Source: Gonapodya prolifera JEL478
Taxonomy: Eukaryota; Monoblepharomycota; Monoblepharidomycetes; Monoblepharidales; Gonapodyaceae
Direction: 5' to 3'
Assembly: GCA_001574975.1 (NCBI GenBank)
Contig: KQ965770.1
Span: 16,960-80,959, forward strand
DNA: 64,000 nt
Shown here piece by piece: positions 34,965-64,000 of this stretch. Under the pieces are notes generated by a model. It had not been told where the DNA came from. It ran no database searches and was given only the letters and a program-made list of their open reading frames with translations. The stretch's first letter is position 1. Each line of letters opens with the position of its first letter. The position numbers and the translations under genes are program-made.

Positions 34965-35147
34965 CGTCGGGGTGGTTGTGTCCGCAGCAGTCCGTCCAAC
35001 CACCAATCACATCTCTCATTGCCAACGCTTGAAGCGAACGCCAGCCCTCAAAATCTTTACTGTTATCATCGAATCAAATTTGGCTATGGATTCTATTTAA
35101 CGTGGCATCCATGCCCACCATATTGCTACACTATCAAGCTTCGCTCG

Positions 35148-36843
35148 TCAACGCAGTTTGAACCGACTGTGAGAATCCTTCTCAGAAAAATTTGTGAGCG
35201 ATATCAGCACACTCGAATAGCTCATCTTTATGGCCGCAAACTTTCTGATGTCACCAATCAGATCTTCTCCTGTGAAATATGTGTGTTTGTTTCACCATTG
35301 ATAACACAAAATCTGTCCACCGACGTCTCACCCGCCACGCTAAAAAATAGACTATTGAACGAGATTCGGGCACCAATATTCGACCCAGCTTCTGGGAGAA
35401 ACAATGATCTCCTTGGCGAACGCAGCACCACCAACGGGAACGGTGATCTTAGTTGCAGTAAGCAGCTCATGATCAAGCTTGCGATGCATTCGGTAGTGAT
35501 AAAGGCGAAAGGATGAGGTGATCGTGTTGGTGATGGAGTAGATCATGACTGCAAATTATTGCAATTTAAAGGGTCCTCTTGACAATCCAAAAAGCGTGAC
35601 AGCGCCAGACGTAACGTTTGTAAGGAAATGATTGAGTGTCATGGAAGGTGGGAAGTCTCCGTCTCCTCCCTGCAAATGGGTCCCCTCGTACTGTACGGAA
35701 AACGGGTTAAACCAGACACCAGCATGCCGCTTGCGCTTGGGTACCCACAAACTTTTCGCCAATCCACGCCATCAAACCAACAGGACCATCACTGACAGCA
35801 AAGCCCAGCGTCTGCGGTTTCGTCATTTGTATTTGCTGATATCCAGTTCCGTCCTGGTAGAATTTCAGGTGCTGCGCAATCCATGATGCTTCAGCTGGTG
35901 CAAGTGGTGGCAGAGTGGCATCTTCCGGTGGTTTGACAAAAGATAGCAGGTTGAGCTAATCGGGCATTGGGGGACGAAGTGTAAGACTCCACACTTCAAC
36001 AAGATTTCCCATGCGCACTGCGACGTGACTCACATGAATAGCTCCGTAATTAGTAGGGAAGAGTATCGCCAGTGCCTGCAAGTCCGCTGTCAGGAAAGTA
36101 GATGTGAGTGCGGATGATAATGCGGCTTACACTGGTAACTGAGGAGCCCCAATCCCCTCCTTGAGCTACTGTAGATGCAATTTTACATGAATTGAAACCG
36201 TATGGTAGAAGAGGGCACCAAATACTCGCCATATGCAGAATAACCGAGAGTTTTCACCACATTGAAAACTTTTGCCGTTTCTGATACACCAAAGTCACGG
36301 ACCTGTTGCGGCGGACGAGAACCCGTAGCCAATGAGAGATGGAACGACTACGTGAAAGGCAGGATCAGTGGCAGGTGGCGGGTGGGTCAAGGGCCGAAGA
36401 AGGTCCAGGAACTGAGCGAGTTCTCCGGAAACCGCGCATTTCGCAGTCGATTCTTGAGACTGGCGAAAAGATGTGGTGGGCACGTGACAGGAACGGAACA
36501 GGTGAGGCCATCTGGCTTAAGAAAGAGCGTGTGGCAGTTCGTGTTTCATTCCTCACTTGCTGTTGAGGAAATTGGCGGCGAACCCTAAAAGTGATCCGCA
36601 ATATTTTATCGATGGAACTGAGATGCTCGCACAATATGACTGGCCAAGCGGTGCTGTCACAGGGACCGTCAAGCCCGCCACGAACGCCCCAGGGGAAAAG
36701 GGAATCTTGGCTGGACTCAATTTGATCACGTAGAACGTTAGCCAGAGTGCCTGCATTATTTGCATTACATGTACAGGGGTAATTGCGATATTGTACTAAA
36801 ACTGATGAATGCTGTCGTATGTGCTTACAGTGTCCGGCACGCG
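35148..36843 (-). CDS. Epoxide hydrolase-like alpha/beta hydrolase, incomplete or decayed
   Basis: Related to microsomal/juvenile-hormone epoxide hydrolases, which open epoxides using an Asp-His-Asp triad. Visible in order: QFLDLLRPLTHPP and FHVVVPSLIGYGFSS (about 36410-36290), then RDFGVSETAKVFNVVKTLGY, then AQGGDWGSS with the nucleophilic Asp. Then EDATLPPLAPAEASW, QIQMTKPQTLGFAVSDGPVG, LTNV, YSITNTITSSFRLYH, VPVGGAAFAKEIIVSPRSW and EYWCPNL. The tail EDLIGDIRKFAA ends at 35148. The N-terminal third with the oxyanion HGWPG motif could not be found in the 480 bp before QFLDLL, and the catalytic GGHFAA is not readable. Either these exons are lost, or they are spliced in a way I could not resolve. 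The 5' limit is arbitrary, set at the neighbour's stop. Confidence 0.72.
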
Positions 36844-42178: not shown

Positions 42179-43189
42179 AAAAAGGAGTGGCGAGGTGTCG
42201 CGGGATGCCCCTCAGCAGGTCCCGCGACGATTGGTGGTGGATACAAGGGATCCTATTGTCTTCGAGGTCTCCCGTCCGTCAAATTTGCGGTGCCAGCTTT
42301 CCCAGTTCACTCCGCGTGTTTTGATCCAAGGGTGGCTTTTGTCCCTCCCAACGGGGAAACCTTGCACAAATATAAAATGCTGTGTTTTCAAAGATAATTG
42401 CTATGAAAGTATGCGTAGCACAGATAGCAAGCCATTGAATTGGAATGCGAAGCAGGGCGGTGCTGGTGGCGTTCACTGGGACAACCCCCGTCGATCGCGT
42501 GGCGATGATCCAGGAAGCATGAAATTGCTCGCCTTGATGTCTGCTAAACGTCGATCCTCTCACGCGCATAAGGTTTGGATACATGTGTTGATGCCCCAAC
42601 TCCCCCACAGTACTGGCGATACCGGGGGCGTTCTCTCCTGAGGGAACTGGGAATGGTGTGAACGAGGGGGAGGCGGCACTACCATTGTTCACCCCAATTT
42701 CCCTCAAGTCCTCGATACATGACAGAAGAAAAGCGTTATGTTTCGATCGACCGAGATCGGTACCGCTTGTAGTGGGTTTCTACATATTGTGTCAGAGCTA
42801 GGCGGAGATACTGCAACTCCTTTGCTTCCCCATCTAAACTCCCAACTTACAGACGCAAATATCATTCAAACTGCTTTGTACTCGAAGGGGATGGGTGTGC
42901 TGGTCGTCGCAGTCATTCGGCCGGTCGACTAGGCGATCGGAGCTTTTACTCTGTTCCCGATTGCACACATTGGATCTGGACTTACAGTCCGCCTGCAAGG
43001 TGACCTTAAATAAGCTCAAAGCATCGCTATCTAGCGGTGTGAGCTGACTCTCTCACAGACTGCGACGTGTAACTTTATGTTGGTACCTGACTTTCAATCA
43101 ATCGATTTCATTTCAGTTCGCTGCCAGTGAATCTCACAGCCATTAAATGCTGATGCGTTGCGTGAGAGGTGCTCTAGAACGAACTCATG
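42179..43189. other. Intergenic, upstream of LRR protein B
   Basis: About 1 kb between the start of LRR protein B and the left arm of the inverted repeat. A minus-strand open frame at 42707-42279 has no family resemblance. Nothing else could be supported. Confidence 0.35.
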
Positions 43190-43290
43190 AACGACAACGA
43201 GGAGTTTCTTGGTAGGATTGTCTGCGTTCAAGAGGCAACGTTCGACCCTACAGCCGCCAACAAACTCGCGATCGTTGCGGGTGACGTGAC

Positions 43291-43578
43291 TTGCAGGGGA
43301 CCCACCATGGCGAGAAAGTGCTCGGGACCACCCACGAAGGTGCTTTGGAGACAGTACCAGATGGGACGAGGGTTGTGCGAGATGAGTTTGGGATGGCGAG
43401 TCGAAAGCGACTAAATTTGGTGAGGGCGAGATCTGAGGGGAAGGTTGGTTGGCTGGCGGAGTCCAGTGCGCCGATGGCAGTCTGGTCATTTTGGTCGTTC
43501 GACAAACCGCGTGCGGAATTTGCCAAATCGTACTGGGAAAGAAATAGGCAACAGACGATCACTGCTGGCATAGGCTGA
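43291..43578 (+). CDS. Unknown protein, C-terminal exon in left repeat arm
   Basis: Plus-strand frame ending AVWSFWSFDKPRAEFAKSYW and then TITAGIG and a stop at 43578. The diverged copy in the right arm keeps the same frame and the same stop on the minus strand (around 61055-60933: AVWSIRSFEKARVEVATSY, then IITVGIG). Preservation of frame and stop in two diverged copies suggests real coding sequence, though substitutions are often non-synonymous. No family was recognised and upstream exons are not resolved. Confidence 0.4.
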   Translation: MQGTHHGEKVLGTTHEGALETVPDGTRVVRDEFGMASRKRLNLVRARSEGKVGWLAESSAPMAVWSFWSFDKPRAEFAKSYWERNRQQTITAGIG

Positions 43579-43942
43579 TCCATTATTCCACGTGTTGTGC
43601 ATCGCTTTATGATGGTCGTTGTCGAAGTTGAGCTTTGTGACAGGATGTCTTGGAATCCAAAGAGAGTCGTCGGGAGCAAGCTGACCTTCGAAAACGGCAA
43701 CAGCAACGGCCTAAACATCGTCTGGCCCGCTTCATTCACGCTTTCATTTTATTTGGGCTCACTGTTATCTATGTGGCAGTGTAGAAGGCTCGCTCGGTGT
43801 CCGAGTCCAACATATTTGGCAACATAGGCTACAGTCACCAGTGCGTTACCTCCATCGACATTCATCGTATCGGTGATGTCTGCCCAGTTGTGTTGTCAAG
43901 GAGCAAAAAAGAGGGAGAATCGCCACGAGTATCGATTGAAAC

Positions 43943-44137
43943 ATGAACAAATCGAAGTGCAATTGGCGTTCGACTTGCAACATAATCGGCGTCCAGTTAG
44001 AGCCCACGCGCGCCGAGCACATAGTTCTTGAGTATCCGAGCGAAGGGCGTATTACTCGCATGGTCAATATGGCGAGGAAAGTGGAAGAAAGGGGAGAGTT
44101 TGAAGACGGTTTGGTCACCATCTGTGCCACATTTTGA
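43943..44137 (+). CDS. Unknown open frame at edge of identical core (left copy)
   Basis: Contains IIGVQLEPTRAEHIVLEYPS and RMVNMARKVEERGEFEDGL, a protein-like composition, ending in a stop at 44137. It starts in the diverged flank and runs into the identical core; the right copy is at 60546-60361 on the minus strand. It could be an exon of a longer gene. No family recognised. Confidence 0.35.
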   Translation: MNKSKCNWRSTCNIIGVQLEPTRAEHIVLEYPSEGRITRMVNMARKVEERGEFEDGLVTICATF

Positions 44138-44287
44138 AGCAGTTGCNCGGTGTCAAGTTCCCACTTCATCTAAACAGTTGATTTATGAGCTGCAGGAGAG
44201 CGCGTATGTTTTACATCAGCTCGAATTCAAAAAGAGACAAAGTGGCGCAGCAGTGCATAAAAGGGGTGGGTGCCTGTGCGGTAAAAG

Positions 44288-44367
44288 NNNNNNNNNNNNN
44301 NNNNNNNNNNNNNNNNNNNNNNNNNNNNNNNNNNNNNNNNNNNNNNNNNNNNNNNNNNNNNNNNNNN
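44288..44367. other. Assembly gap of 80 N (left copy)
   Basis: 80 unknown bases. The mirrored position in the right arm (60131-60210) has a gap of exactly the same size with the same flanking bases. Confidence 0.98.
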
Positions 44368-45010
44368 GGCAGGATTTTCGTGCGTTTGACGGGGTGGCAG
44401 CGTCCCATCGACGGTGTAGCGAGCGTTCGCGGCTAAACGGCACTTANTTGCACCGCCAGACAAGAACTGACTCTCCTTACAACCAGGTTCTGACAGAATC
44501 AATCCATCGTACACGGGAATCGGAGCGCTTTTCATATCCTTGCGGCTTCTGAGGAGAATTCGGTGAGTTACGCGACCGGCGTAACGTTGTTGCTGNCTCC
44601 GTGGTTTTAAACATGTTTTCGAATCAGCGCAGCGTCACGTCGCATCCATCATGCAATCAAGCAACCTAACCAAACATTTGGAGACATGGTGACTGTGGGT
44701 GAGAATGAGGAGATAATTTGGACCTCAGACACATGAAGGNCGCGGACACGAGCACCACGGAGCCTTCGTGCCAGACTGCACGCTCAAGAGCATCAGCAAG
44801 CAACCCAGTGGCCACTTGCTGGCGGATGGTTGTTCTCGTACGGGATCCCGGACCTCCTGGTTCCGTTGCGGGTTGTTAAGGATTGCCAGAACAGGTACAT
44901 CCCGAACCCACAGACCACCGAGAAAGCATCCGCTTCGCGCCTGAATGGAACGCGACCTGCGGACGCGTGGATTGAAGGCTTCCGTGGTGCATTGGGGTGG
45001 CGTGGTGCAT

Positions 45011-45136
45011 TGTTGTGGTGGAGAAGGACTTTGTGAATTCAGACGATTGCATTGTCGTGGTGGAGAAGGACTTTGTGAATTCAGACGATTGTATTGTTGT
45101 GGTAGAGAAGGACTTTGTGAATTCAGACGATTGCGA
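45011..45136 (+). repeat. Three tandem copies of a 42-bp unit (left copy)
   Basis: Three head-to-tail 42-bp copies. In the plus frame starting 45015 each unit reads VVEKDFVNSDDCIV, the last ending DDCDV and a stop at 45141. The differences between units (TGC/TGT, GTC/GTT, GTG/GTA) are all synonymous in this frame apart from the final codons, which suggests that this is, or was, the coding frame. Mirrored at 59362-59487. Confidence 0.85.
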
Positions 45137-46450
45137 TGTTTAAACGAGGCACGTCTTCACTTTGGTGGGCCCCATGGGCAACAATCGCCGAGGAGACCTT
45201 CGCACTCGATTCATGCTTCCTTTGCGGAGTGTCAATCCACCTCGGTGGAATTTCCTCGGATGTCTAATGTGGAGTGCAAGCGGGCATTTGCTCCGGCTGC
45301 TTAGGTTGCGTGACAGTGGCAGTTGCTCTCCTGACGAGACTGGGGCGCCGTCGTTGTCACTCGTGACTTCGTGGTGCCATCCTACGTCAGGGCCACTCGA
45401 AGAAGAACGTCGGCGTCGTGTATCGTGGCGTGAAATACCGACCTGCGGGCGTGAGGAAAGAAGGTCTCCGAGGTGTGGATCGCCGAACATTGGCGAAGAG
45501 GAATCATGGAGGAGCATCGTGTTCGATTGCGCCTTTATGTGTCGCTCACCCCACGCTCAGTTTCTCGAACAGGTCTTCTCGTTTCCCTCTCCACCCAACG
45601 CCCCCCGTCTTCGCCTCCAGTCTTTGAGCTCGGCATCAATGAACGGCACTGGTGAGAGTCTTGCGATTTTGTGCAATGGACTATAGTTTTCGGGTATACC
45701 AGCTTGAATTATTTTCACAACAGGTATTTGAGGACGGGATCCATCATGTTCCGAGATTTCTTGATGTGTTGCTGACCCCACCCACTCTTTTAGGCCTTCG
45801 ATTCTCACTCGCACGGTGTGACGCAACAAACTTCACCTTCGTCTTCCGCCTCAAGCTCGCCATCATTCATGGAATGGCACCGGTGACGAACTCAGCGTGT
45901 TGCGTTACCCTTGGACCTTCTTGGGTTTCAACAGCACTCCGGAACGTCATCGGTTGACATCAATGTCGAGTTCTAGGCACAGGTCAATTCGTCCTCCCAA
46001 GTCGAACATCAACGTTCTGCCCATGAGCGTCCACTTTCCTAGTCTCACAGTCAAGTACTGGGCTGTGAACTTTTCGCCTACAGATCGAAGTACAAGTAAA
46101 CACAAGCGAACGCGTTCAAAATGCGTAGTGTCGCAGTTTCCTACCTTTTATATGGTGTTCTTTTGTATTCTGAATAAATGATGATAATCACAGTATAAAT
46201 TGAGAGCAAAATCGACACTGACTCGAATAAGCACCATGCTCATCCAGCGACCCGCCCACGGAAGAGCTCGTCGCCCAAGGAAAGCTAAAAAAAAGCACAT
46301 GCACCGGCACTGTTCACCTTCTTCACAGTCACGCTCCTCGACCATCGGGTCCCATGATCTTTTACAACTCTGGTGCATCGATATCAACCTCAAAAATACC
46401 GATAGTCAATCAAGATTGTATATATTACCAGAAGCATGTAAAGAAACAAC

Positions 46451-49400
46451 TCAAAATATGTAAAAGCTTTGTGACATTGGCACAGTCTTTGCCGCCGGAC
46501 ACTGCAGAAGTTCACCATCCGCCCAGACCTGATACGTTTCCGGATCGACTTTGATCTTTGGCAAGGCTGAATTCAATTTCATGTCTGCTTTCCGAACTGT
46601 GCTGCAATTCTTGACCGCCTCGACTCGTTTTCGAAGACCATACTTTGTTGCAACGCCTGCGGACAATGCAGCGCTGCTAACAAACGCGATGGACGACAGT
46701 CCAGCACCAAGTGGGAGACCGCCAAACATAGGGCGGGCAATAAGTGGCTGAGTTGTCGGGATGGAAGCGTTTGCATCACCCATCTGGGCGTATGCGACCT
46801 GTCGTGAAGTTGTTAGAAAGTAAAGGATGTAACGAGCATGACGCCACCTCACCAAGCCGCCTTTAATGACCCGCTCTGGCTTCGTACCAAAGAATGCTGG
46901 TTTGTACATGACGAGATCGGCCCACTTTCCAACTTCCACGGAACCGATGACGTGCGACATCCCCGCCACAATCGCACTTGTGGACATAAAGAGCATGTCA
47001 ATGACAAGACACACAAGCGACACAGAAGTCACCAACTCACGGATTAATCGTGTACTTCGCGACGTATCTCTTGATTCTGAAATTATCGTTTCTCTCCAAC
47101 GAATCCACAGGAGTCGCGCCGCCCTTGAGCCATCCCCGCTGGTCCTTCATCTTGGACGCCGTATGCCACGTTCTCGAAATGACCTCTCCCACACGGCCCA
47201 TTGCCTGCGAGTCAGAACTGATGATACTGATGGCCCCAACGTCATGCAGGATGTCCTCGGCCTGGATTGTCTCGGCCCGAATGCGCGATTCGGCGAAGGC
47301 GATGTCTTCGGGGATCGACCGCGACAAGTGGTGACATACCTGAATAAAGTATCGTCAGGATGAGGTCTGCATGGAACGTTGCAAGCCCTGAAAACGTACC
47401 ATCAGCATGTCTACGTGCTCGTCTAGTGTGTTAACTGTGTACGCCCGAGTAGGATTGGTAGACGATGGGATGACGTTGGCTTCCCCCTGAGAACAGCAGT
47501 GCCAAGAGTTACAGCATCATCAGGTGACCAACTGACGTGCAGTGTATGTCCACCCCTACTCACCACGACACGAATGATGTCGGGAGCGTGACCACCTCCC
47601 GCGCCTTCAGTGTGGTACGCGTGTATGGTCCGGTTTTTGAATGCAGCGATGGAGCTCTCCACGAACCCAGACTCGTTCAACGTGTCTGTGTGAATACTCG
47701 TCTGCCAAAACCCCAACGGCGTTACCACCAAACTCCTCCCATTCGTCTGCGCGAGCCTCCTCTCACCTGCACATCGAACCTCTCGCACACCTCCAAACAC
47801 GCATCAATGGCGCTCGGCGTGGTACCCCAATCCTCGTGCAGTTTCATCCCGACGGCTCCCGCGCGGATCTGGTCCTCCAGACCTTCCTTGGACGCTGCGT
47901 TGCCCTTGCCCGTGAACCCGACGTTGAGCGGAATGTCATCCGTCGCCGTGAGCATGAACTGCATGTGGTGGATCCCCGGTGTGCATGTAGTCGCGTTTGT
48001 GCCCGTGTTGGGACCCGTTCCGCCGCCTGTCGTGGATCAGAGGGGAGTTGGAAAGCCCAGGGAATGTGCGTTCGACCAACGAGGGAAAGACATCAATGGG
48101 ACAACGTACCAAGCACCGTTGTGACACCCGACGCGATCGCCTCGGTGCAGATTTGCGGACAAATAAAGTGAACGTGGGCGTCCATCGCGCCCGCAGTGAA
48201 GATGTGGCCCTCCCCAGCCAGTGCCTCCGTGGTAGGTCCCACAACCATTCCGGGAGTAACGCCAGCCATGACGTCCGGGTTTCCTGCCTTTCCAATCCCC
48301 ACAATGAACCCTTTTGCGGCGGAAGGGGCACCTGTCGGGCACGAACTCACGCAAACCTGTCCACACAACACACACCTTTCTTAATCCCAATATCCGCCTT
48401 GAAAATCCCCGTCCAGTCGACCACGAGCGCGTTCGTGATGACCAAATCGAGTGCCTCGGCGTCCGTCACGCCGGCCGCCTGACCCATCCCGTCGCGCAAC
48501 ACCTTGCCGCCGCCGAACTTGCATTCGTCGCCGTAGACCGTGTAGTCGTGCTCCACTTCGAGGTGTAGCGAGGTGTCAGCGAGGCGGACCCTGTCGCCGG
48601 TCTGAGGTGGTTGAGGAAGTGAGCGGGTGTTGGTGCTGTGGAGGGACGAAGAGAGGAGACACTCACTGTGGGGCCGTAGAAGTCGGCGTATGTTTTCCGA
48701 TCCATTTCGGCCGGCTTGGGCACAACTTCTTCTTCCTGAACTTTGAACCCAAACCCAAGCTCCGCCAGCCGGTTCCTGAGCTCGACTTTTTTGGACTCCT
48801 CGACTTTGCCCGTGGCCAGATTGTTGCCGCCCTTGATGACCTGGTTGCCCGCGATCTCGACAAGCGTGACCGTCTTGGTCTCGCCGGGCTCAAAGCGGAC
48901 GGCTGTACCCGCCGCGATGTCGAGGCGTTTGCCGTAGGAGAGGATCCGGTCGAAGACTAGGAGAGGGTTGGTCTCGATGAAGTGGTAGTGGGATCCGACC
49001 TGGAATGCGGTGTCAGCAAGGGTGGATACACATTGAGCGGGGGAGAGGCGTGAGCGTGAGCGTTGAGCGTACCTGCACAGGCCTGTCCCCGTTGTTAGTC
49101 ACTTTCAGTCCCACCCGCTTGCGCCCCGCGTTGAGTTGGATTTTGCCAGACTGAACGACAACGCCTCCCGGGGGCACGACTGTCATGTCCAGTATTTCCC
49201 GGGGGAAGAGGTCGGCAGACGGAATGGGCAGGAAGGAGCCGTACAGCGCGAGTTCGAGGTTGCCGTCGTCGGTGCTGATGGGGTCGTGCACCGTAACGAG
49301 TTTCGTTCCGTCCTGGAACGTGCCTTCCACCTGGACTTCATGCAGCTGCGCAAGAACGCTCGAGAGAACGTGTCGTCGTCCCAGGAGCTTGGAAGGAGAT

Positions 49401-49713
49401 CTGGTGAGCACAACGGGGGAACGTTGAGGGGCGTCGGAGCGAGGGAACTCACCCGTCGCCCGACGTCCATGAGCTGAGCAACGGAGTGCTTCCCATCGCG
49501 AATGAATTCGAGAAGCTGGCTCGCGATCAGAGCTGTCGCTTCCGCAAAGTTCAGCTTTAGACCCCTTGCGAGGCGTTTCTGGGCCAGGAAACCGACCTAG
49601 CAGGCGATTGCAGCGTTTTTGTGATCGTCAGTGAACATCACGGGGCTACGCCGTGCTGGAACCCACCTGGTGCAGAACGAGTTTGTCCAACTCCTTTGGG
49701 CTCAAATGCATTG
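46451..49713 (-). CDS. URE1: Urease, single-chain fungal/plant type
   Basis: Nickel metalloenzyme hydrolysing urea to ammonia and carbamate in the cytosol. Start ATG 49713 gives [15 protein letters not shown], then [16 protein letters not shown] (gamma part), then the beta part with [13 protein letters not shown] and TAVRFEPGE. The alpha part has [17 protein letters not shown], then MDAHVHF with the first nickel ligands (about 48170). Next are [10 protein letters not shown] with the carbamylated Lys (about 47844), [16 protein letters not shown] (about 47620), the flap [20 protein letters not shown], and [12 protein letters not shown]. The end is MSQSFYIF at 46451, the family's C-terminus. All active-site residues looked for are present. 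About nine short introns. No urease accessory gene lies in the window. Confidence 0.98.
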
Positions 49714-50489
49714 TGTTCGACGTGCGATAAGGGATTCGACACGCGGATCAGGCTGCACACGCTGTTGTGCGGGAGTTTCGAGCGAGAGAAGTCCGTAAAT
49801 CGGAGACTGGAGAACGGAGTCAGTGGGTGGTAGTTGAAGGCTGCGGCCCACCTCCTCCGTGACTTGACTTCCGTGGTCATCATGAAAGGACCTCAAACGG
49901 AACGTAAAACAACAACAACACATTCGCTCATGTCGAGCTCGAGGATCGCATGCTCAGAAGCAAACGGGTGCCTCGACCGCTCTTCATGGTGCCCGGGTGA
50001 TGGGGATGGAAGCTGGGAACTCCACAGTCGAGCGCGCACCTGATGTGTGGACGTGCGGATGCAGGGCGGCTCACAGGAGATGGAAGGAGTGCCGCCGGTG
50101 GTGGACGCAGATTGGGGTGAGTCTGGAATGTTTTCTAAGTTGGAAGAATCCATGCCAGGGTAACACCTAATAAATGCCCTTCCGGGAATTACCTTCAAGC
50201 CTGGGCAACCCTGGCGTCACACTAAGGTTCCATCTCCACTCCAGAAAACTGTCCAAGTTTCTTCGCGTGACGCGATCTCGCTCCCGCGTGTCTCCGCTCA
50301 CCGTCCATCGGCAACCGTCGCAACTCATTACACGCCGCTCTCATCAAAGTGCGCTCCCTGCTTTTCTCCCTTCCCTGCTTCCTCGCCTCAACCATTCGTC
50401 ATCCCAATCCCGCTAGCCTCGCATTGGTCCATCCTCCAGCGGTTGACATAACATAACCCTGTCAACGTTGACGCCAGCATCTCCGCTGC
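49714..50489. other. Divergent intergenic region
   Basis: About 780 bp between the urease start (minus) and the cysteine-rich surface protein (plus). Likely holds both promoters. The short frames here lack family features. Confidence 0.4.
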
Positions 50490-53421
50490 CATGAAAAGCA
50501 ACACGCCACCAAGACCCTCTGCTGGGCTCTTTTTCTGCTCGTACTCCTGCTTGCCTTTACAGCAGACGCTGCCACTGGTGAACTTTTCATGCACCGCGCA
50601 GTTTACAAACCCGACGCAGCCTCACACCGCCTAATGCCTTCCCCAGCATGCCAAGCTGGCTCTTTTCCAGCTGGATCCAAGTGCAGCCCATGTCCGGGAA
50701 GTTCTCTGCTGCTGGTGACGCCCAATGCTCAAACTGTCCAGCTGGGACCTATTCCGGATCCGGCGCAGCCTCGTGCAAATCCTGCTCGGCCGGATCCTTC
50801 TCCACCACCGGCAGCGCCGCGTGTACTCTCTGCGCAATAGGCACATTTGTGGCTACGACGCGGGCGACAGCTTGCTCCAATTGCGCCGCCGGCACGTTTG
50901 CGAACTCCACTGGGTCCTCCTCCTGCACTTCGTGCGCCGCAGGGTCGTACTCTGCCTCCGGTGTTGCGTCTTGCACGGCATGTTTAGGTGGCACATCGTC
51001 ACCGGTCGGGGCCTCGTCTTGCACCGCCTGCACGGCCGGATCTTTTGCATCCTCTGGCAGCGTGACTTGTACATGCCCAGTTGGCACCTTCTCATCCACA
51101 ACGGGGGCAGGGTCTTGCACCGACTGCCCTATCGGCACGTCCGCGGACACGACTGGGTCTACCTCGTGCACCGTCTGCCCTTTGGGTTCATTTTCCTCCA
51201 CTTCCATCGTCCTCATGCACACAATGTTCGGCTGGATACTTCTCCAGCACCACGGGCTCGTCGAACTGCACGGCATGTAATGCGGGGACGGTCTCCACCT
51301 TGGGTGCCGCATCTTGCACTACCTGTCTCCCTGGATCTTTTTCAACTGCTGGCAACGCCATGTGTACCACCTGTCCAGTCGGCACCTTTGCATCCACTGC
51401 AGGCACAGGCACTTGCAGCGACTGCCCCATCGGCACGTTTGCGGACATGACCGGGTCAATCTTCTGCACATGGTGTCCCGTTGTCACGTTCTCCTCAGCC
51501 ACCAAGTCGACCTCATGCACGTCTTGCCCGTCTGGGACGTTCGCCGCCTCTGTCGGATCGGTGAGCTGTTCCGCTTGTCCCGTAAATACGTGGGCAAAGG
51601 TTGACGGCACGGGATGCACCAATTGCCCCGCAGGGGGGTCGTCAGCTGTTGGTAGCACGACGTGCACGTGTTCGGGAGGAGCCACGTTTGTGGCGAACAG
51701 TAATACGTGTACCTGCTCGACGAGCGATCAAGATTACGTGCTCGTGCAAGGTGTATACAAATGCGCTGCTCGAACGTGAGTTTAAATGTTTTCCGCTCTT
51801 TCTCCACATTGCTTATCAGATTTTGTCTCTCAATTCCATTCATTTCTCTCATAAAGAACAACCATCACCACGCAGTCAGTTTTAGGTCTACCTGGTCATT
51901 GTTCGTGGTGATAATGTGCTGACGTCAACAATCCGTTCCGACAGAACCACAGTGACACAAACCACAACTTTGACGACCTCGGAAACTCCCTCCTCAACGA
52001 TTACCACCTCTGAAACTCTCAGCACGACTATCACGACCTCCGAAACTCCCTCCACAACGATTACCACCTCTGAAACTCCCAACACGAATATCACCTCCTC
52101 AGAAACGACGCCAGAAACAGCCATTACCTCCGCTACTACTTCAGAATCGGCCACGACCTCTGAAACTGCAACGGCTACGCTCACGACTCTACGGCATCAG
52201 AGTCTGCGACGTGAGTGCTTCAGAAGCTTGGGAAAATAATAATTCGGCTCGTTATTGATGCCACCTCGCCACAAGCGAAAGTCCCACGACAGTGGCCACT
52301 ACAAGGTAAATCTTTACCTTTATGGGCTTCGCGATTTAGGTGACTTACGTTTTGTCTCCACCGTGCAACGGTCTTGGCGGAGACGACGTAAGTTTTGTCT
52401 CCACCTAACTTTTCAGTTCTCATCTCAAGAAATAATAGTCGTTGTTGGTTTTATTATTCGAATATAAAAGATCTATAACTACCGTAACCACGTAAGTTCG
52501 TGATATAATATGGAACAAGCCATCGCTTGAACACACTCTCTTCACTTTAGAGATATATCTACCACCACCTCCCCCATCACGTCTACAAACACTGCGACTA
52601 ACACACAGACGATTTCGGAAACTCCCACCGCATCGATCGCGACCTCTAAAACCTCAACCACATCAATTACGACCTCTGCAACACCCGCATCGACGGCGAC
52701 ATCCACTGAGACTCTAACATCGACGGCAACGTCCTCAGAGACTCTGACATCGACTGCAACTCCCATGGAGACTCTGACATCGACTTTAACGTCCTCGGAG
52801 ACTCGCACGTCGACCACAACGTCTACGGGGACTCGCACAACAACGGAGACCAGCACGGGACTCCCACGTCGACGGTTACTGTTGGACCGATGATCACATC
52901 CACAACGTCTCAGACGGAAGCAGCAACGTCTACCACGTAAGTTTATTCTGTGTGTAGTTGAGCACATTGAGCGTCAGATGCAACATGTTTCTGATGAGCA
53001 AAATTGTTTTGGCGACAGAAAATTCACCACCACCACCACCAATACTTGAGTTCTTTTTGGGCTCTGTTTTCTCAAATGTATTCCAATCTCACCTCGGGTT
53101 GCTTTTTTTGCAAGTACTCGACCGGTCAAGACCTCCACCACTCGGACGACCGCAACGACCAATACAACGACCATGACCACCACGAAAAGTAAAACTCGAC
53201 CAACAGCACCACGACCAAAACAAAAACCATGACCACCACAAAAAGTATGACTACAACCAATAGCACAACGACCAAAACAAAGTCGACGACTTCCGCGACA
53301 CAAACTAGGACCAAAACATCCACAACTACGTGAGAATGGAGCTCTCGTCATCGCGAACTTGGTCACAAGGCTCATTCACACTTGTCTTCTCCAACCTTCG
53401 CAGCAAAACCCGGACCAAATG
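50490..53421 (+). pseudogene. Cysteine-rich (growth-factor-receptor/TNFR-like) surface protein with Thr-rich stalk, frame interrupted
   Basis: A secreted or wall-bound protein. The signal peptide reads TLCWALFLLVLLLAFTADAA (about 50515-50575). After an intron, 17 or so repeats of the type CxxCPAGTYSGSGAASCxxC run from 50645 to 51700, the pattern of growth-factor-receptor Cys-rich domains. A Thr/Ser stalk with TTSETPSTTITTSETP repeats follows in several exons (51951-53335). Tail ends near 53421, and no membrane span was found. The reading frame slips by one base at least four times outside plausible introns: near 50697, 51215, 52190, 52860 and probably 53190. Each would be restored by one extra base, so undercalled bases are as likely as true decay. 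The start codon is also out of frame with the signal peptide. Marked pseudogene only on present sequence. Confidence 0.7.
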
Positions 53422-54149
53422 AATGGAGCAGGTCGTGCGTGACATTATGCTGAGGGTACGTTAATCGCTGCAGCTCAGAGTGTATCCAAGCGGAGTTGGG
53501 AGATGATGGTAGCAGGCTGATGGAGGACATACGACTGGAGCCGTACACCTAATTATTGTGAAGGGACGGCGTACTTGGGCGACTCATATGGATGATGTAC
53601 ATGGACAACTTACCCAGACGGTTCACACGGACGATTTACTCTTACATAAGAGCATGCACAAGTTACAAGTACCGCGCTTTCAACGAAGTAATTAATATTG
53701 TTGTACGTTCAACTAAAGATTTCACGCTGAGTATCCTGATCGGGGGAGCAAAAGACATCGTGCAGCTGATATTCGAGTCAGCTTCGGACATGGTGATGAA
53801 GCCGCGAGCTAGTTTTCGGACAAGAGTAACGGCATTGATGGTCACGGGGGGATGCTCTCGTCCGCGGTCTTGCAAGAGTGGATAGAAGATTCGTTTGAAA
53901 CGAGGTGGTGCAGGCCACAGTGGAACAGAAGGTTGGTGGTGCGATCGGCCACAGCAACAATGAAGCACAGCTCTTGTCTCGGTTGGAGCCATTGATGCGA
54001 AGAGGGGTTGGGAAAATATGCGCATAGAGGAGTAACACGGTTGGCTCGGGAACTAGCGTTGAGGTGTTCGCCAGCCAGGCAGCATGTGGAAGAGAAGCAT
54101 CGTTCGCTCGCTCCGATCATCACATAAAACCTTTCCCATCCCACAAGAA
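53422..54149. other. Intergenic with unassigned open frames
   Basis: About 730 bp. A plus frame at 53592-53885 (containing KDIVQLIFESASDMVMK) and an overlapping minus frame at 54025-53663 are open, but neither has a recognisable motif. No gene supported. Confidence 0.35.
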
Positions 54150-55204
54150 AATGGCTCGCCAATCACTTACAGAAACGAGACCAGCGATTGTGGCTCGTCA
54201 ACACAGTCTCCCCCAGATGCGGCTGCAGATCCATCTCCGCAAACAATATAGCCGCCACGCGAGCCTCGCAACCAGAACAAGGATATTCCGCCATCCACGC
54301 CGTGGGGTATACTCAGCGCTACGCTGGGTAGTCTCTTTGGTGAGGGGAAGAACATCAAGCTCAGCAAGGACTTCCACGAAAAGAGGAAACTTGGGAGCAA
54401 AGTTGCATCCGCTAAAGCCATATATTCTTTGGTGAGTGTTCCCACCTTAGTGAATGTGCACGAGTGACGAGACTCATTCTTTTGCCAGACTGTTGGCACA
54501 GAGTTCATCGGGATGCTCATTAGCTGGCCATACGTGAGTGATGGTTCCGGAATCTCCCATACTTCACGTTCACTTGCCTCATTTTAGGCCCTCATGTACG
54601 GCTGGGGATCCTTTACTGTGAGCATTCCCTTCAAATGGCTTCTATTGGTGAATGAATATCAAATGAAGGATTCGACATACGTCAGATAGCCTTTTTCGTG
54701 GGCAGCATTATGGTCTGGCTTCAGGCACTTGCAAATGCAGAAATGACGGCGGCATTCCCATTAACTGGAGGACAGACGGTATGTGGACTCCATCCCCTTT
54801 TTATTGCTAACAGCTTATGTATGCTTTTGCGTTTAGACATGGGGAACAGCGGCGTTTGGATCAATCGGAGGCACAATCATAGGTGGGTACATAACCTTAC
54901 CTTTCATTCGAGGGAGTGGGTGCTGATGTCGTCATGCTCTTTAATAGGACAGCTGGTGCGTAACACCTCCTTCGTCATTTGGAAACCTTCAAGGCAGCCT
55001 CTAAACTCATTTGATCAATATCTATTCCCCAATCGCCTTCAGGACATCGTTCACTAGCTTCTCAACATAGCTGCTTTCACAGGTGATGCTGGGCGACAAA
55101 CAGCACGCCTATTCGACTTTTCACCGGAAGCCAAGTACACGCCAGTCATTTACGCGTTATACCTTGTGCTGGTTACCGTTGCAATGGGCCTTGCTGTAAA
55201 ATGG
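54150..55204 (+). pseudogene. APC-family amino acid/ethanolamine permease, N-terminal half
   Basis: Covers the N-tail and about five membrane spans of an APC transporter. Visible: IKLSKDFHEKRKLGSKVASA, then YSLTVGTEFIGMLISWPYAL, IAFFVGSIMVWLQALANAEM, TAAFPLTGGQT, WGTAAFGSIGGTI and a last span YALYLVLVTVAMGLAV. The LANAEM..AFP..GGQ segment is the family's third-helix signature. The reading ends at 55204 with a good donor (TG|GTAAAG); in the unspliced frame a stop follows at once. No further permease exon exists downstream on this strand. A stop also lies in frame in the N-tail near 54250, so the start is unresolved. The missing half is found on the opposite strand at 55211-56322. Confidence 0.8.
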
Positions 55205-55210
55205 TAAAGG

Positions 55211-56322
55211 GCTCCGGCAACTGCAAAAGGAGCCTGAAGGCGAATTAGTAGTCACCCTAAGATTTTCAGTTGAGCCAAAAAGAGAATCGTCCCATCTCAC
55301 CTTGTGTGGCCGAGGCAGCGTCGGCATGATGTAATGAAGGCGAATGTGAATAATCTGCTTCGTTAGGTTTGCGCAGTACTCGTAAACGAGAATCAAGAAT
55401 ACTGTGAGCTATAATTACGGCAGCTTTACCGTGAAAGATGCTTTGGTTGAACGGGCAGACTGCAACCTACCGCTAGAGCCATTTCGTCGTCACCCAAGTA
55501 GCTATAGCCAACGCATACTAGGAAAGCAAGCACCGAGATGAAGATTGTCGCAGCATATGGTGCACCCGATTTCGAGGTGAGCGAAAGAGACGTCGGCAGG
55601 TAACCAGCACTTGAGTTTGCATACACCTGAATGACATCGTAGTTCAACACGGGATGGACTCACAGAACGACTGCATGCATAGAGCGAACCCATGAGACCA
55701 AGGATGTCGATCGGTATCATGAGAACGGGCAGAATCCGCATCTTTGGGTCCGCGGCATCCATGATACGCCAAGCTTGTGCCATGTTACCCCAAATCGGGT
55801 GTGAAGGGCCCGAGATCGCGACCAATCCTGGCGCCGAGGCTGTCGAGCTGTCAAGGAGGTGGTAAGAATCACTCTTCGATACGAGCTCATCTTGCTTGTC
55901 TGAAGATCACTAGCATCACAATCGACAGCAACGCCCCCGCACCTAATGTTGCGACAGTCCCACACGTCACCTTTGGAATCGCTCTTCGAATATCCACGGC
56001 TTCTTCTGCAGCCAGTGGAGCAGCTTCGTATCCTCCGTAGAACCACCATGCACATGGGAGGGCTCGTATAATACCAATCAGCGACACGCTTGTGAGTGAT
56101 TGCAGGTGCGATTGGGTGTCAGGATCGAGGAGCTCAGTTGCGCTGAGACCTCCATTGGCAATATTTGCGGAGAAGTTTGTGGATGGAACCGCCTGCAACG
56201 AAGGTCCAACCGGTTGAACGAAGAGGCAAACTGTGCACGTTTCTCACGTTTGGTAACTCACCGAACAGAACCACGTCACGTAAAACATGACGTCCCAAGC
56301 CAGGAACAACCTATTCGATTTG
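55211..56322 (-). pseudogene. APC-family permease, C-terminal part in opposite orientation
   Basis: Starts with an acceptor (CTACAG) at 56323-56328, then SNRLFLAWDVMFYVTWFC, and after an intron AVPSTNFSANIANGG, IIRALPCAWWFYGGYEAAPL, AAEEAVDIRRAIPK, LGAGALLSIVMLVIF, RILPVLMIPIDILGLMGSLY, AGYLPTSLSLTSKSGAPYAA and MPTLPRPHK. These are spans 5b to 10 of the family. No N-terminal spans lie upstream: the next gene on the other side begins at 56546. The last partial exon starts at 55221 and runs straight into the end of the N-terminal half at about 55205, so spans 11-12 are absent. It cannot be a working transporter alone. Confidence 0.8.
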
Positions 56323-56545
56323 CTGTAGTCTAGAAGGAAACGCGAGAAATGAGAGACATAAAGGGTCGTGTTTTGCGGAGGAACCGCCCCACTCTTGGTG
56401 CCTCAGGTGCCTGCCACGGTCACCGCATCTGCCTGTTGAGCCTCCAAAACCCAAGCACCTCACGATTCGGAAAATCAACGCTGGACTTCGTTGAATTCGC
56501 GTAGCGTTTTCGTTTCGAGGAATCTGTGCGCTCGCTTGATGGCAG

Positions 56546-58066
56546 ATGGGGCTGCGAAAGACACTCGCATTGGCCCTGCTGCTAGCGATCTCCGCGGCGT
56601 GGACGTGGGTGCGTTGCGCGGCAGCAGACAATCAAATTAGTGCATTAGGAAAGAGCGATCCCGTCATCGAAAGCTCGACGATAGATGCGAATTCAGGGGG
56701 GGCGAGCGGCCAACGCCCTTCCAAGAGACAGGAACCGTCCGGTAGTAATTTCGGGTACGGCGGAACTGGAGGATATGGTGGAAACGGAGGATTTGGTGGG
56801 AATGGTGGCTTTGAGGGTTCTGGAGGATTCGGTGGATACCATCCATCGTATCCCCCGTTTCCACCCCCGAGGCCACCACCACCACCTCCACCACCTCCAC
56901 CACCACCTCCACCACCACCTCCACCACCACCNCCTCCACCTCCACCTCCGCCTCCACCTTCACCTGCGCCTCTTCCCCCTCCTCCACCTCCACCTGCAGA
57001 CCCACCGGCACCTCCTCCCACCCCCCCTTCATCACCACCACCATCCGTGGACGCAGCCCCAGCACCGACATATTCCCCTCCACCACCTCCACCGCCCCCT
57101 GTGAATCCCCCTACACCACCGCCCACTCCACCTCCCTCCCCGTCCTACCCCGCTCCTGCACCGTCTCCACCCTGGGGCGCCGGGACCCCCACTGCAGCTG
57201 TACCCTGGATCCCTCACACAGCGTTGTGGCCAAGCGCGAGCACGTCGCACTCATGGACACCCTCTGTGCTACCCGCACACACGGCGCCGGCCTCGTCTAC
57301 AGTCCGGGGCGCGGCGCCCCCGCAGTGGACTCCACCTGCGGGCCAACCTCCCACCCCGGCTCTCGCCCCGCCCATTCCCGTCCCTTTCGACTCTACGATC
57401 CCCACCTCGTCACCCACACCTCTCGCCCCCTCTGACGCTACCATCCCTGGCGTCGTCGTTGGTAGTCCCGAGCAGTACCTCGCCATGGCCGGCCCGGCGC
57501 CCATCATGTCGCCCGCGATGATCGGGGGCGTGGTCGCCGCCGGGGTGGTCCTCGTGGTGGCGGCTGTAGGGCTCGTAGCGTGGAAGCGGGCAAGGAAGCC
57601 GACAAAGCGGACAGAACGTAACGTTGTGGATGGGTTCAACGGTACGTTTTGTCTCGCGCGTTCAACGTGTGTGCTGGTCACATCCTTGAACTCATGCACT
57701 GAACTCCTACGTCACGCAGAAAACCTCCCTTACGCGCCCGTGGCGAAATACTTCCAACGCATTCCAAGTCCTGCACCAAGCATGCCACAAACACCTGTCG
57801 ACGCCAATCCGTCGCCAGGTTCCCCACGTACCACGTTCCCCTACTTTGGCCACTCGGGCTCCTCTCGCGACCGCGACCGGCCCGTCTCCACTGCCCTTTC
57901 TGACACGACGCGGCGCACGTCCATCTCGTCCGACGGCGCGCCATTCGTGTTCCCGGGAAGCCCCGTGCTGAGCGCCCAGCCTACTCCTCGGCGGATCGTG
58001 CCCGAGATGAGCGAGGTAGGGAAGGGAAGGACGAAGCGGCCGTGGGAGATGTGGCGGAAGTCGTGA
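56546..58066 (+). CDS. Proline-rich single-pass surface protein
   Basis: Probably a wall-associated membrane protein. ATG 56546 opens a signal peptide ([20 protein letters not shown]). A Gly-rich block of GGFGGNGGF-like repeats (56750-56845) is followed by a polyproline region (56855-57170), extensin-like, with one ambiguous base at 56932. After a Ser/Thr/Pro stalk comes one membrane span ([20 protein letters not shown], about 57517-57580) with stop-transfer [10 protein letters not shown] 79-nt in-frame intron (about 57641-57719, GTACGT to CGCAG) is likely; leaving it in would insert a Cys-rich segment. The cytoplasmic tail (about 110 residues) is Ser/Pro-rich and ends RPWEMWRKS at 58066. No enzymatic domain. 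It lies next to the inner end of the right repeat arm. Confidence 0.83.
56855..56995 (+). repeat. Polyproline-coding CCACCT/CCTCCA microsatellite
   Basis: Nearly pure proline-coding short tandem repeats with one N. Array length is unreliable. Confidence 0.85.
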
Positions 58067-59361
58067 GTCGTGAGCGCCGCAACGCACTTGAGGTGTCATT
58101 GCATTGGGCTCGTGATAGCGGCGGCTCGCGGCTTGTGGAGGTGAACAGTGCGAGTGCGAGTGCTTTTTCTCGGGTAATAGTTTTCCTTGGGCGACGTGGT
58201 GGAGCTCTTCCGTGCGCGGGTCGCTGGATGAGCATTGCGCTTATTCGAGTCAATGTCGATTTTGCTCTCAATGTATAGTATGATTGATCATTTATTCAGA
58301 ATCAAAAAAACATCATATTAAAATTACTAAACTGCGACATTACCCACTTCATACTTGCTAGGATGCAGTGAAGTGACTAAGGGTACTTGTAATTTGGATG
58401 AGGAGGCTAAAACTCCATGCCCACTCGAACCCCAGCGCTTGAGTGTGTAACTTGAGTACGAAACTTGTCGCTTGAAGGAAGAGTGTCGATGTGGGACTTG
58501 GGAGGACGAATTGGACATGTGCCTTGAAGTCGACATCGATGTCAACGATGACGTTCCGGAGTGCTGTTGAAACCCAAGAAGGTCCAAGGGTAACGCAACA
58601 CGCTGAGTTCGTCACCGGTGCCATTCCATGAATGATGGCGAGCTTGAGGCGGAAGACGAAGGTGAAGTTTGTTGCGTCACACCGTGCGAGTGAGAATCGA
58701 AGGCCTAAAAGAGTGGGTGGGGTCAGCAACACATCAAGAAATCTCGGAACATGATGGATCCCGTCCTCAAATACCTGTTGTGAAAATAATTCAAGCTGGT
58801 ATACCCGAAAACTATAGTCCATTGCACAAAATCGCAAGACTCTCACCAGTGCCGTTCATTGATGCCGAGCTCAAAGACTGGAGGCGAAGACGGGGGGCGT
58901 TGGGTGGAGAGGGAAACGAGAAGACCTGTTCGAGAAACTGAGCGTGGGGTGAGCGACACATAAAGGCGCAATCGAACACGATGCTCCTCCATGATTCCTC
59001 TTCGCCAATGTTCGGCGATCCACACCTCGGAGACCTTCTTTCCTCACGCCCGCAGGTCGGTATTTCACGCCACGATACACGACGCCGACGTTCTTCTTCG
59101 AGTGGCCCTGACGTAGGATGGCACCACGAAGTCACGAGTGACAACGACGGCGCCCCAGTCTCGTCAGGAGAGCAACTGCCACTGTCACGCAACCTAAGCA
59201 GCCGGAGCAAATGCCCGCTTGCACTCCACATTAGACATCCGAGGAAATTCCACCGAGGTGGATTGACACTCCGCAAAGGAAGCATGAATCGAGTGCGAAG
59301 GTCTCCTCGGCGATTGTTGCCCATGGGGCCCACCAAAGTGAAGACGTGCCTCGTTTAAACA

Positions 59362-59487
59362 TCGCAATCGTCTGAATTCACAAAGTCCTTCTCTACCACA
59401 ACAATACAATCGTCTGAATTCACAAAGTCCTTCTCCACCACGACAATGCAATCGTCTGAATTCACAAAGTCCTTCTCCACCACAACA
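59362..59487 (-). repeat. Three tandem copies of a 42-bp unit (right copy)
   Basis: Mirror image of the array at 45011-45136, identical in sequence. Confidence 0.85.
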
Positions 59488-60130
59488 ATGCACCACGCCA
59501 CCCCAATGCACCACGGAAGCCTTCAATCCACGCGTCCGCAGGTCGCGTTCCATTCAGGCGCGAAGCGGATGCTTTCTCGGTGGTCTGTGGGTTCGGGATG
59601 TACCTGTTCTGGCAATCCTTAACAACCCGCAACGGAACCAGGAGGTCCGGGATCCCGTACGAGAACAACCATCCGCCAGCAAGTGGCCACTGGGTTGCTT
59701 GCTGATGCTCTTGAGCGTGCAGTCTGGCACGAAGGCTCCGTGGTGCTCGTGTCCGCGNCCTTCATGTGTCTGAGGTCCAAATTATCTCCTCATTCTCACC
59801 CACAGTCACCATGTCTCCAAATGTTTGGTTAGGTTGCTTGATTGCATGATGGATGCGACGTGACGCTGCGCTGATTCGAAAACATGTTTAAAACCACGGA
59901 GNCAGCAACAACGTTACGCCGGTCGCGTAACTCACCGAATTCTCCTCAGAAGCCGCAAGGATATGAAAAGCGCTCCGATTCCCGTGTACGATGGATTGAT
60001 TCTGTCAGAACCTGGTTGTAAGGAGAGTCAGTTCTTGTCTGGCGGTGCAANTAAGTGCCGTTTAGCCGCGAACGCTCGCTACACCGTCGATGGGACGCTG
60101 CCACCCCGTCAAACGCACGAAAATCCTGCC

Positions 60131-60210
60131 NNNNNNNNNNNNNNNNNNNNNNNNNNNNNNNNNNNNNNNNNNNNNNNNNNNNNNNNNNNNNNNNNNNNNN
60201 NNNNNNNNNN
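60131..60210. other. Assembly gap of 80 N (right copy)
   Basis: Same size and same flanks as the gap at 44288-44367, in mirrored orientation. Confidence 0.98.
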
Positions 60211-61270
60211 CTTTTACCGCACAGGCACCCACCCCTTTTATGCACTGCTGCGCCACTTTGTCTCTTTTTGAATTCGAGCTGATGTAAAACATACGCGCTC
60301 TCCTGCAGCTCATAAATCAACTGTTTAGATGAAGTGGGAACTTGACACCGNGCAACTGCTTCAAAATGTGGCACAGATGGTGACCAAACCGTCTTCAAAC
60401 TCTCCCCTTTCTTCCACTTTCCTCGCCATATTGACCATGCGAGTAATACGCCCTTCGCTCGGATACTCAAGAACTATGTGCTCGGCGCGCGTGGGCTCTA
60501 ACTGGACGCCGATTATGTTGCAAGTCGACCACCAATTGAACTTCAATTTGTTGCTGTTTCAATCGATCCTTTGCGGCAATCCTCCCTTGTTTTTGCTCCT
60601 TTACGATTTAGTTGGAGAGACTTCATCCGTACTGTGAATGTCGGTGGAGGTGGAAGTACTTGTGACTCTTTTGAAGGCCAATGTTGCCAATGACAATGGA
60701 TTCGGGCACGGAGCGAGCCCTCTATACTGCCCAGAGACCAGACCGAGCCTGAAGGAAAATGAAGGCATGAATAAAAGGGTGCCAGACGCTTGTTTAGGTG
60801 GTTACTCGTGACGTTCTCAGAGGTCAACTTTCATTGCGAGTCTCTGCTGGATTCCAAGACATGTCGTCACAAACCTCAAGTTCGACAGTTACTATCGCCT
60901 CACGATGCGCAATATAAGGAATACGCGATCAGCCTATGCCAACAGTAATAATCTGTGGCGTATTTCTTTCCGAATACGATGTGGCGACTTCCACACGGGC
61001 TTTTTCGAACGACCGAATTGACCAGACTGCCGTGGGGCCAATGGATTCCGCCGGTCGCTTCCCTTGCACCTCCGCTCGCTGTTACCAAACCGAGCTCCAT
61101 ATCTTCGGCCTTCGTCATCCCGAACTCACCTCACACATCTCCCGCCGTCACAGTACCTATCTCCCGGCACCGTCGTGGGTTGCCCCAAGATCAGCCTCGC
61201 CCAACAGCGCAGGTTATGCCGTCTACTATGATTGAGGTGTGGTCGCCCTCAGGTTTGCGGTGGTGTCTTG

Positions 61271-62071
61271 GAAGCCGGATGACGTTGTAGAGAGTTCGCG
61301 GCTCGCTCACGTGGAGGCACCACGTCGCGGCGCGTGTGCTTCTTGTTGGGTAATTTCATTCTGGACGACATAGAGTAGCTTTTGCGTGCGTGCGTTGCTG
61401 GAAAGCACGGTTGTTTCAGAGTTTCATTGCAACCCTACCCCCCCTGTGTATTTCCACTATTACTATACAGACACTAAAATAACATCCCATAACATATAGT
61501 GAACGGCTTTTCCAACCACATCTCATTCTATCGTAGTCCAGAGACTAATATGGACGTCCCCGTCGAGGCCAGTAATCGTCGAGGACGGCCACGCACAGGG
61601 CCGACGCCGCGCACGTCTTGCTCTCTCTTGTTGATATCCTCGTCCCAGCATACAAGTATGAATCTCGGGCCCTCTTGCAGGGAACTTGGTTGCTATACAT
61701 GCCCCATTAGTACAATTCCACGCGAATCTCCCCTGCGTCAGCTCCACCGCTTTCCTTCTTAAAGTCCGAGGTGAAGGTTGTGGAAATGTGACCAAATCGA
61801 GCACGAGATCTTTACAATCATGGCACTTCAAAGATTTGTAAATGCTTCGCCGGGCCGAAAAGCTAATGAGTGATGACTGCTTTGAAATTGTACGAAAAAG
61901 AGCATTGCGATGTATCATGTAATGCAAACGTTAGTAGTTGACCCTCAAAAGCAATAAATGATCATCGGATAAGTACTTTGAAATGAGCTTGTACTGACGG
62001 GGGTTCAGTTCATGTGGTCACCTTTCATTTGTGCATCTGCTCTCTCGGTGTTTGAAAGCCGTTATACAAGG
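61271..62071. other. Intergenic with a weak third copy of a repeat end
   Basis: About 800 bp before the coiled-coil gene. The first 150 bp (61290-61420) resemble 58115-58230 in the same orientation (shared CGGCTCGC, GTGGAGG and CTTTTGCGTGCG-like segments), suggesting a further copy of the inner repeat end. A minus frame at 61927-61523 with CHDC and NCTNGAC is unassigned. Confidence 0.4.
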
Positions 62072-64000
62072 ATGATTCAAGCCGCCGCTCTGCATCGGAA
62101 TCGAACTGGACTGGGATTGATGCGTGATAACAGTTTCCATTCAGACTGGGATGGATATGAAAGAAAGTGGAATTCATCGATCGACGACTTGGATGGGATT
62201 GAGCACACCGTAAGCTGGCAAAAGCGTTCAATTTTAGTGTTGGAGAGTCTTACCATCGTCACCTTTGATGAATCAGCACGCGATTGGTCGCGGTTCAGGA
62301 GGGGATGGAGGATACGGTAGGGACGGTGACTCCAACATGGTGGACTTCTTGCCAGCCGAAGCCGGGCTTCGCTTCTCCAACATGGTGCTACAGAACACAG
62401 ATCCCGTCATGGTCGAGGCTCGCGGGCTCATCTCGTCGTGGCTGGAAGATGCCATCGCCGCACCAAACTCCCCCTCACCCATCACCACGCGGGGCAATCC
62501 CCGCAAGCCGGCGAGCTTTTCTGGAATGGTTTTGCGACTCAAGGAAGAAGTGGAAAGGGAGTTTGATATCGGGAAAGGAGACGCTCGTCGGATACACGAC
62601 GTGGTTGAAGCGGCGGTTGGGGACGGTGTGAAGACGCTCTCGACCACACAGGGTAGGGCACCGTGTCCAACCCAAGATTTACGCGTCTCAATTGAAGCGC
62701 GCCAGAAGCTGGCTGCAGAGCGACGGCGTCGGCTCGCTCTAGAACGACAGGTCGAGGTGGAATCAAGAATGCGCGCACGGGAAGATAGGATGAGGCAAGA
62801 GCGTTACACAATGGAATTAGAAGTAGCGCGGATCCGGTGAGAGACGTTGTGAGGAGACGTCATGCCGCTTTTGATGTGACCGTCCCAAACTCCACAGAGA
62901 GGAGACCAGACTCGCCGAGCAGACTCGGCAAGAAGCGGCTCAGAGAGCTGCCGAAGCAGATGTCAATTTGGCAATTCGTCGCGTCAACGAGCTTCAAACT
63001 GCTAAGAGGCCTCTGCGGCCGCCTGTTACAGCCAAGAAGGGAACACATGTTCGAGACCCTGGACACCGTACGCTGCGCAAAGATGTTCTTGTTCAGAAGG
63101 AAGGAAGTGACAACTTGCCCCGGAACCCTCTGCCAGAGAGTCAAGATCCCGGAAGTTATCCAGAATCTCTGGAACGAAATCGGAAACTTGAGAAGAGCAG
63201 GGCGAAGGCTGAGGAGCTGTTCGCCGTTCACAACCTTCGACGACTGCGGGTGAGTGCTCCGTAAAGCCTGAACTATCTTGCGTGATTTCAGTGATGATGT
63301 TGAGTCAGGTCGCTCTACATGGCTGGCTTGATCTCATCCAAAGCCGAGAACTCTTGACACAACGCTTCACGGTACGTACGTCATCCGATAGCGCCAAAAG
63401 CGACCTTAACAGACGGCTTGTGCCACGTGTACAGGCTATCTCATCCTTCCGCCGTTTGTCCTCTGCGTTTCACACCTGGAGTCGAAGTCGCAAGAGTCGA
63501 GTGGGCGAGCGGGATGCTCTGAACGCCGCTCGCATTGCACGAGAAGAAGCCGAGAAGGAGGTTCGAGCGCTTAGGGCGTGGCGATTCAGTGCTCTGGGGA
63601 AATCGTTTTCAGGATGGCGTGAATGGTTAAGAGTGGAAAGTAAGTGTGCAGGCCCCATTCAACATCTTTTTTGAGATTGACAACCTTGCTTTAGAGGAAG
63701 AACGTGAACTGCGAAGACAGCATTCTGAGCGTGCAGCTAGGATTCAAGCGTTCTTGCGACAAGTCCAAAAAACCGCTGCGTTGTCGACCGAAAACCTTGC
63801 GGATCGAGTCGTACATTCTAGTGCGAGCACGAAAGTGGTCCAAGATGAACAGAATGTCGACAAGGGATCCTCGACGACCGTATCGGAATTAGTTGCCTTG
63901 CCGGTGCCTTGTGGGGCAGGAGAAGATGCTTCCCTCAAAGATGGAGGACAAACTATGAACAGTCTTGGTACTGGTGAATCGAAGGTGTTAGAGGAAGCCC
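62072..64000 (+). CDS. Coiled-coil protein with SFI1-like Trp/Phe repeats, partial at right edge
   Basis: Start ATG 62072 gives MIQAAALHRNRTGLGLMRDN. Exon 1 ends at 62209 with GTAAGC and exon 2 starts at 62277, phase 0. Exon 2 has VDFLPAEAGLRFSNMVLQ and a long charged coiled coil (EARQKLAAERRRRLALER), spliced near 62838 to EETRLAEQTRQEAAQRAAEA. Then follow segments of the type LHGWLDLIQSRELLTQRF, FRRLSSAFHTWSRSRK and LGKSFSGWREWLRVE, spaced like the Phe/Trp repeats of SFI1 and of the centriolar protein CCDC191. The gene continues beyond base 64000. By analogy it would sit at the basal body or centrosome, but the repeats are too few to be certain. Confidence 0.6.

Follow-up and report, generated by a model that had tools for sequence, protein, structure and literature searches.

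Inverted repeats in draft genomes can look alike for more than one reason. In a short-read draft assembly, a repeat may be collapsed, such that one consensus with undecided bases stands for two loci. Repeat arms can also exchange sequence in the chromosome. The human Y palindrome P6 undergoes arm-to-arm gene conversion, with a reported mean tract of 2,068 bp (PMC3723533), and among the long inverted repeats of Caenorhabditis, old duplications are reported whose arms can be closer to each other than would be expected from their age (PMC1803023). The output of one assembler, ALLPATHS-LG, is reported to contain ambiguity lists (PMC6434015). Here we describe a locus of the fungus Gonapodya prolifera JEL478, analysed in a window of 64,000 nucleotides (contig C40 16960-80959, strand +; all positions below are those of the window unless C57 is named), which is most likely explained by ordinary ectopic gene conversion between old inverted repeats together with an assembly shortcut.

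Results

The window contains an inverted duplication, whose arm A (43321-46319, plus strand) and arm B (58139-61189, minus strand) were delimited by blastn of the window against itself and, for arm A, also by an identity profile and by colinearity with an arm, A′, on a second contig. Both pieces of the pair have blastn E = 0, so the similarity is not due to chance. Within each arm is a core, 43970-45952 on the plus strand in arm A and 58546-60528 on the minus strand in arm B; exact string comparison finds one to be the reverse complement of the other over 1,983 columns, N included, with 0 mismatches and 0 indels. The single N of the arm A core (44147, 44447, 44596 and 44740) mirror those of the arm B core (60351, 60051, 59902 and 59758), and the 80-N gap at 44288-44367 mirrors the 80-N gap at 60131-60210. 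A sequence-only reading of this DNA had paired the cores base for base without an indel and had placed four N and the gap at mirrored positions, all of which proves exact; its proposal that one consensus was placed twice is borne out by the identical N and gap in both cores. The 100% identity of the cores is a property of that one consensus and no measure of how alike the real arms are, and at least some of the core N probably mark differences between arm A and arm B.

On both sides of the core the arms show the diverged homology that the same reading had described, with 72.8% identity in the outer flank (644 compared columns) and 81.0% in the inner flank (364 columns). The A-B homology ends near 43321/61189 and 46319/58139, and the edges at the core are sharp.

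We searched the assembly (47,557,447 bases, 207 contigs) with the arms as queries; among the best candidates scored, matches were found on C40, where they are the two arms, and on contig C57 only. On C57 lies another copy of the locus, colinear for the most part and mostly 83-92% alike: C57 209089-150602 matches 23789-58981 and 71211-93979, the latter match extending beyond the window up to the end of the C40 sequence that was compared. The longer blocks are 83-91% alike, except for 169 bases at 94% and 3.7 kb at 77.6%. Two segments, 26765-36415 (9.7 kb) and 55206-56303 (1.1 kb), are inverted between the two contigs.

The same inverted pair lies at the corresponding place of C57, where arm A′ occupies about 185.7-188.6 kb and arm B′ is represented at 172680-173656 by its inner part, colinear with the inner part of arm B; this agrees with the earlier proposal that a genuine old inverted duplication underlies the cores. 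Because arm B′ is cut at C57 172680 and adjoins, within about 25 bases, sequence matching 71211, about 12.2 kb (58982-71210) is missing from C57. A search of the assembly for a second copy of 61000-64000 found none beyond the arm itself. This difference is probably a loss in C57 rather than an insertion in C40, since the outer flank of arm B is as distant from arm A as an old duplicate should be.

The 80 N of the arm A core correspond to 78 sequenced bases in A′, and as these look unremarkable by eye, we rejected the idea that both gaps stem from a motif that is hard to sequence. The core also holds a 42-bp tandem repeat of 3.1 copies (45006-45134, plus strand; mirror 59364-59492), at the place of which A′ is without about 102 bases. 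A protein encoded by the arms was likewise considered and rejected: six frames of 43151-46450 (6 translations) contain 0 Pfam families at E up to 0.1, codon periodicity is not marked among the substitutions that separate A from A′, and small indels are many. The arms may nevertheless contain a small gene; a 138-codon frame on the minus strand (45143-45556) is uninterrupted in A as well as in A′, and this region is the best conserved part of the arm (94.2% between A and A′ over 381 columns, no indel).

Comparison of the four arms identifies which one was overwritten. In the flanks of the core the closer pairs are A with A′ and B with B′, which makes the inverted duplication older than the split between C40 and C57. 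From the outer flank through the core to the inner flank, the identity of A with A′ is 90.7%, 90.0% and 82.6%, and that of B with A′ is 72.1%, 90.0% and 74.2%; because B resembles A′ closely in the core only, it is arm A that replaced arm B there, in the chromosome or in the assembly. The whole core differs from A′ at 176 of 1,764 columns, the same for A and B, and its identity to A′ per 100-base window runs from 75.8% to 96%, not counting the window of the tandem repeat (15 columns). The other pairs in the inner flank give 89.4% for B-B′, 82.1% for A-B′ and 81.0% for A-B. That A and A′ are only 82.6% alike in this flank reflects faster evolution of A′, which is the odd one out in 33 of the 336 inner-flank columns (A in 15, B in 17, B′ in 12).

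The columns that group the arms in pairs point the same way. In the inner flank, 26 of the 336 columns group A with A′ and B with B′, 3 group A with B and A′ with B′, and 2 group A with B′ and B with A′. In the part of the core where B′ survives, the first grouping occurs in 0 of 398 columns, against the 26 of 336 (Fisher p = 9e-10). B′ is the odd one in 52 columns of that part, where 45 would be expected of an A-type core and 14 of a B-type core; for A′ the count is 26, with 39 expected if A-type and 70 if B-type. Thus arm B carries an A-type core. The paralogous repeats are diverged outside the tract, where A-A′ (90.7%) and B-B′ (89.4%) are closer than A-B, and arm B is A-type inside the tract and of its own type again on both sides, as gene conversion predicts. 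The core of arm B is evidently a copy of arm A, made after C40 and C57 parted, whether in the chromosome or in the assembly.

Whether two real cores exist was approached through the ambiguous bases. With one core copy counted, the core has 4 single N in 1,899 bases versus 5 in 209,695 called bases elsewhere, taken from the remainder of the window plus 18 stretches (12 beside the two loci, 6 scattered), giving p = 8e-7. We discarded this value as proof of two copies, because it ignores the clustering of N near gaps. None of the four core N is more than 373 bases away from the 80-N gap, and there is no N in the 1,185 core bases at distances above 400; elsewhere, 3 of the 5 are at most 400 bases from a gap, and the other 2 are in simple repeats (10272 and 56932). 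When bases within 400 of a gap edge are compared, the core has 4 in 718 and the rest 3 in 3,364 (p = 0.02), and at distances of 200, 300, 400 and 500 bases the matched p is 0.10, 0.06, 0.02 and 0.01. With gap proximity allowed for, the excess of N in the core is at most suggestive of two real cores. If the four N are differences between the arms, A and B have diverged by 0.21%, which is about 2% of the distance from A to A′, and the conversion would be recent. The start of the window directly abuts a 6,035-N gap of C40, with single N at 290 and 377 near that edge.

The junctions are a second source of evidence. All four junctions of core and flank have 0 gaps and 0 N, an observation whose weight depends on the assembler, as the meaning given here to the single N presumably does too. 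The sequencing of G. prolifera JEL 478 is reported to have been done with JGI, with assembly details given in a supplement (PMC4494064); a literature search found no paper naming both Gonapodya prolifera and AllPathsLG. The best placed of the competing explanations is that the arms were altered in the assembly only: the true core of arm B would be as diverged as its flanks, and the assembler would have filled its place with the consensus of arm A. This explanation accounts for the same N and the same 80-N gap at both cores, it predicts an A-type core at both places, as found, and it fits N that lie near the gap and are absent from the other 1,185 core bases. However, it would require reads or overlaps that link the flank of arm B to an A-type core, as the junctions are ungapped. 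It also predicts an orphan B-type core, for a sequence that is 20-28% different should assemble apart, and queries made from A, B and B′ found none among the best candidates scored in the assembly, which may lack small contigs. We therefore consider an assembly-only origin unlikely and favour a replacement that took place in the chromosome.

The arms might instead have been homogenised repeatedly by conversion, like the palindromes of sex chromosomes, with the core under continuous exchange. A near-identical core within diverged arms is what such a process could produce, but the core is cleanly A-type over the compared length, with no mosaic of A and B, and the arms on C57 are without homogenisation. 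Where both survive there, they are only 72-78% alike: 71.8% over 861 columns by blastn, and 78.4% in the core part and 76.2% in the flank part of the four-way alignment. Repeated homogenisation is thus very improbable. These values also bear on the sequence-only reading, which held that gene conversion had kept two near-identical arms alike; nothing observed here shows maintenance over time, and the A-type core points instead to a recent, one-way replacement of B by A, probably chromosomal. Inverted arms around a gene-bearing spacer of about 12 kb might also suggest a large mobile element that bears the spacer genes and has the arms as its terminal repeats. We rejected this as highly improbable, because the homology of C40 and C57 runs far past the arms (23789 to 93979), so that they are not the borders of a copied unit, the arm sequence was found at C40 and C57 only, among the best candidates, with no instance of arms limiting a unit at unrelated places, and arm A has no Pfam family in six frames at E up to 0.1.

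The spacer between the arms (46320-58138) contains, by Pfam matches on open frames, pieces of urease on the minus strand (Urease_beta, Urease_gamma and Amidohydro_1) and ephrin-receptor-like cysteine-rich pieces on the plus strand, along with a proline-rich open frame on the plus strand. Between C40 and C57, the urease and ephrin-like pieces have dS of about 0.21-0.29 and dN of about 0-0.10, values that are approximate since they come from stop-to-stop pieces that may include some intron (46560-47100 and 49016-49400 were left out). By this measure, the copies on both contigs look constrained. At 48142-48499, in the fungal urease gene, Rfam reports a match to the bacterial 5_ureB_sRNA at 47 bits; this is probably urease coding sequence rather than an RNA gene. 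Elsewhere in the window, an open frame at 38872-40413 matched one protein, at 43%, from Gonapodya sp. JEL0774 (scored were the 7,986 candidates sharing most words), and a dispersed repeat family at 16006-16975 matches many contigs at 70-100%, dozens of times or more, a lower bound from 39 of 48 candidates scored.

Discussion

Any explanation of this locus has to accommodate a consensus shared by both cores, an older inverted pair and an A-type core in arm B. We give a probability of about 0.72 to a recent, one-way gene conversion of about 2 kb from A to B, with one merged consensus then used twice. We propose that an inverted duplication first gave two copies of a segment of about 3 kb, about 12 kb apart, when C40 and C57 had not yet diverged. 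In the lineage that leads to the window, the arms would later have recombined, and about 2 kb of A would have been copied onto B in a non-reciprocal conversion, leaving the two cores nearly identical. The assembler, unable to separate them, would then have merged them into one consensus, in which a few bases stayed undecided (N) and one break remained (the 80 N), and placed this consensus at both cores.

Several points reach beyond this locus. Two sequences of a draft genome may be perfectly identical because they are one merged consensus, and shared N are a poor guide to copy number because they cluster near gaps. A diverged sister locus, by comparison, can reveal which arm was overwritten without any reads. 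The larger point is that about 70 kb of the locus exists in a second copy, a hint of large-scale duplication in a fungal lineage that diverged early. A long second copy was also found for two of six 6-kb stretches scattered over the assembly, one from C23 on C22 (82-84% over about 3.2 kb) and one from C17 on C98 (87% over 5.2 kb); the other four have short matches or none, and six stretches are too few for a genome-wide claim. A literature search found no paper on duplicated blocks in Gonapodya among the matches listed, and PMC4494064 has a single mention of 'genome duplication', in a reference on Rhizopus. Tentatively, C40 and C57 could be one of many homeologous blocks from a large-scale duplication or hybridisation, in which repeats within a block convert each other and the two blocks remain separate, undergoing inversions and deletions, a scenario that we regard as possible at best.

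The locus shares traits with each of the known systems and is identical to none. As in a collapsed short-read repeat, one consensus with undecided bases stands for two loci, the N here presumably having that meaning. As in the long inverted repeats of Caenorhabditis, old arms are in part more alike than their age suggests; there, the inverted structure is reported to be often conserved across species, whereas here one sister locus has lost most of one arm. The exchange itself most resembles that of P6, being non-reciprocal and between inverted arms, with a length of 1,983 here that is close to the P6 mean. However, the arms of P6 are reported to be more than 99.9% alike through frequent exchange, and here about 2 kb of 3-kb arms are identical, apparently through one event, with none at the sister locus.
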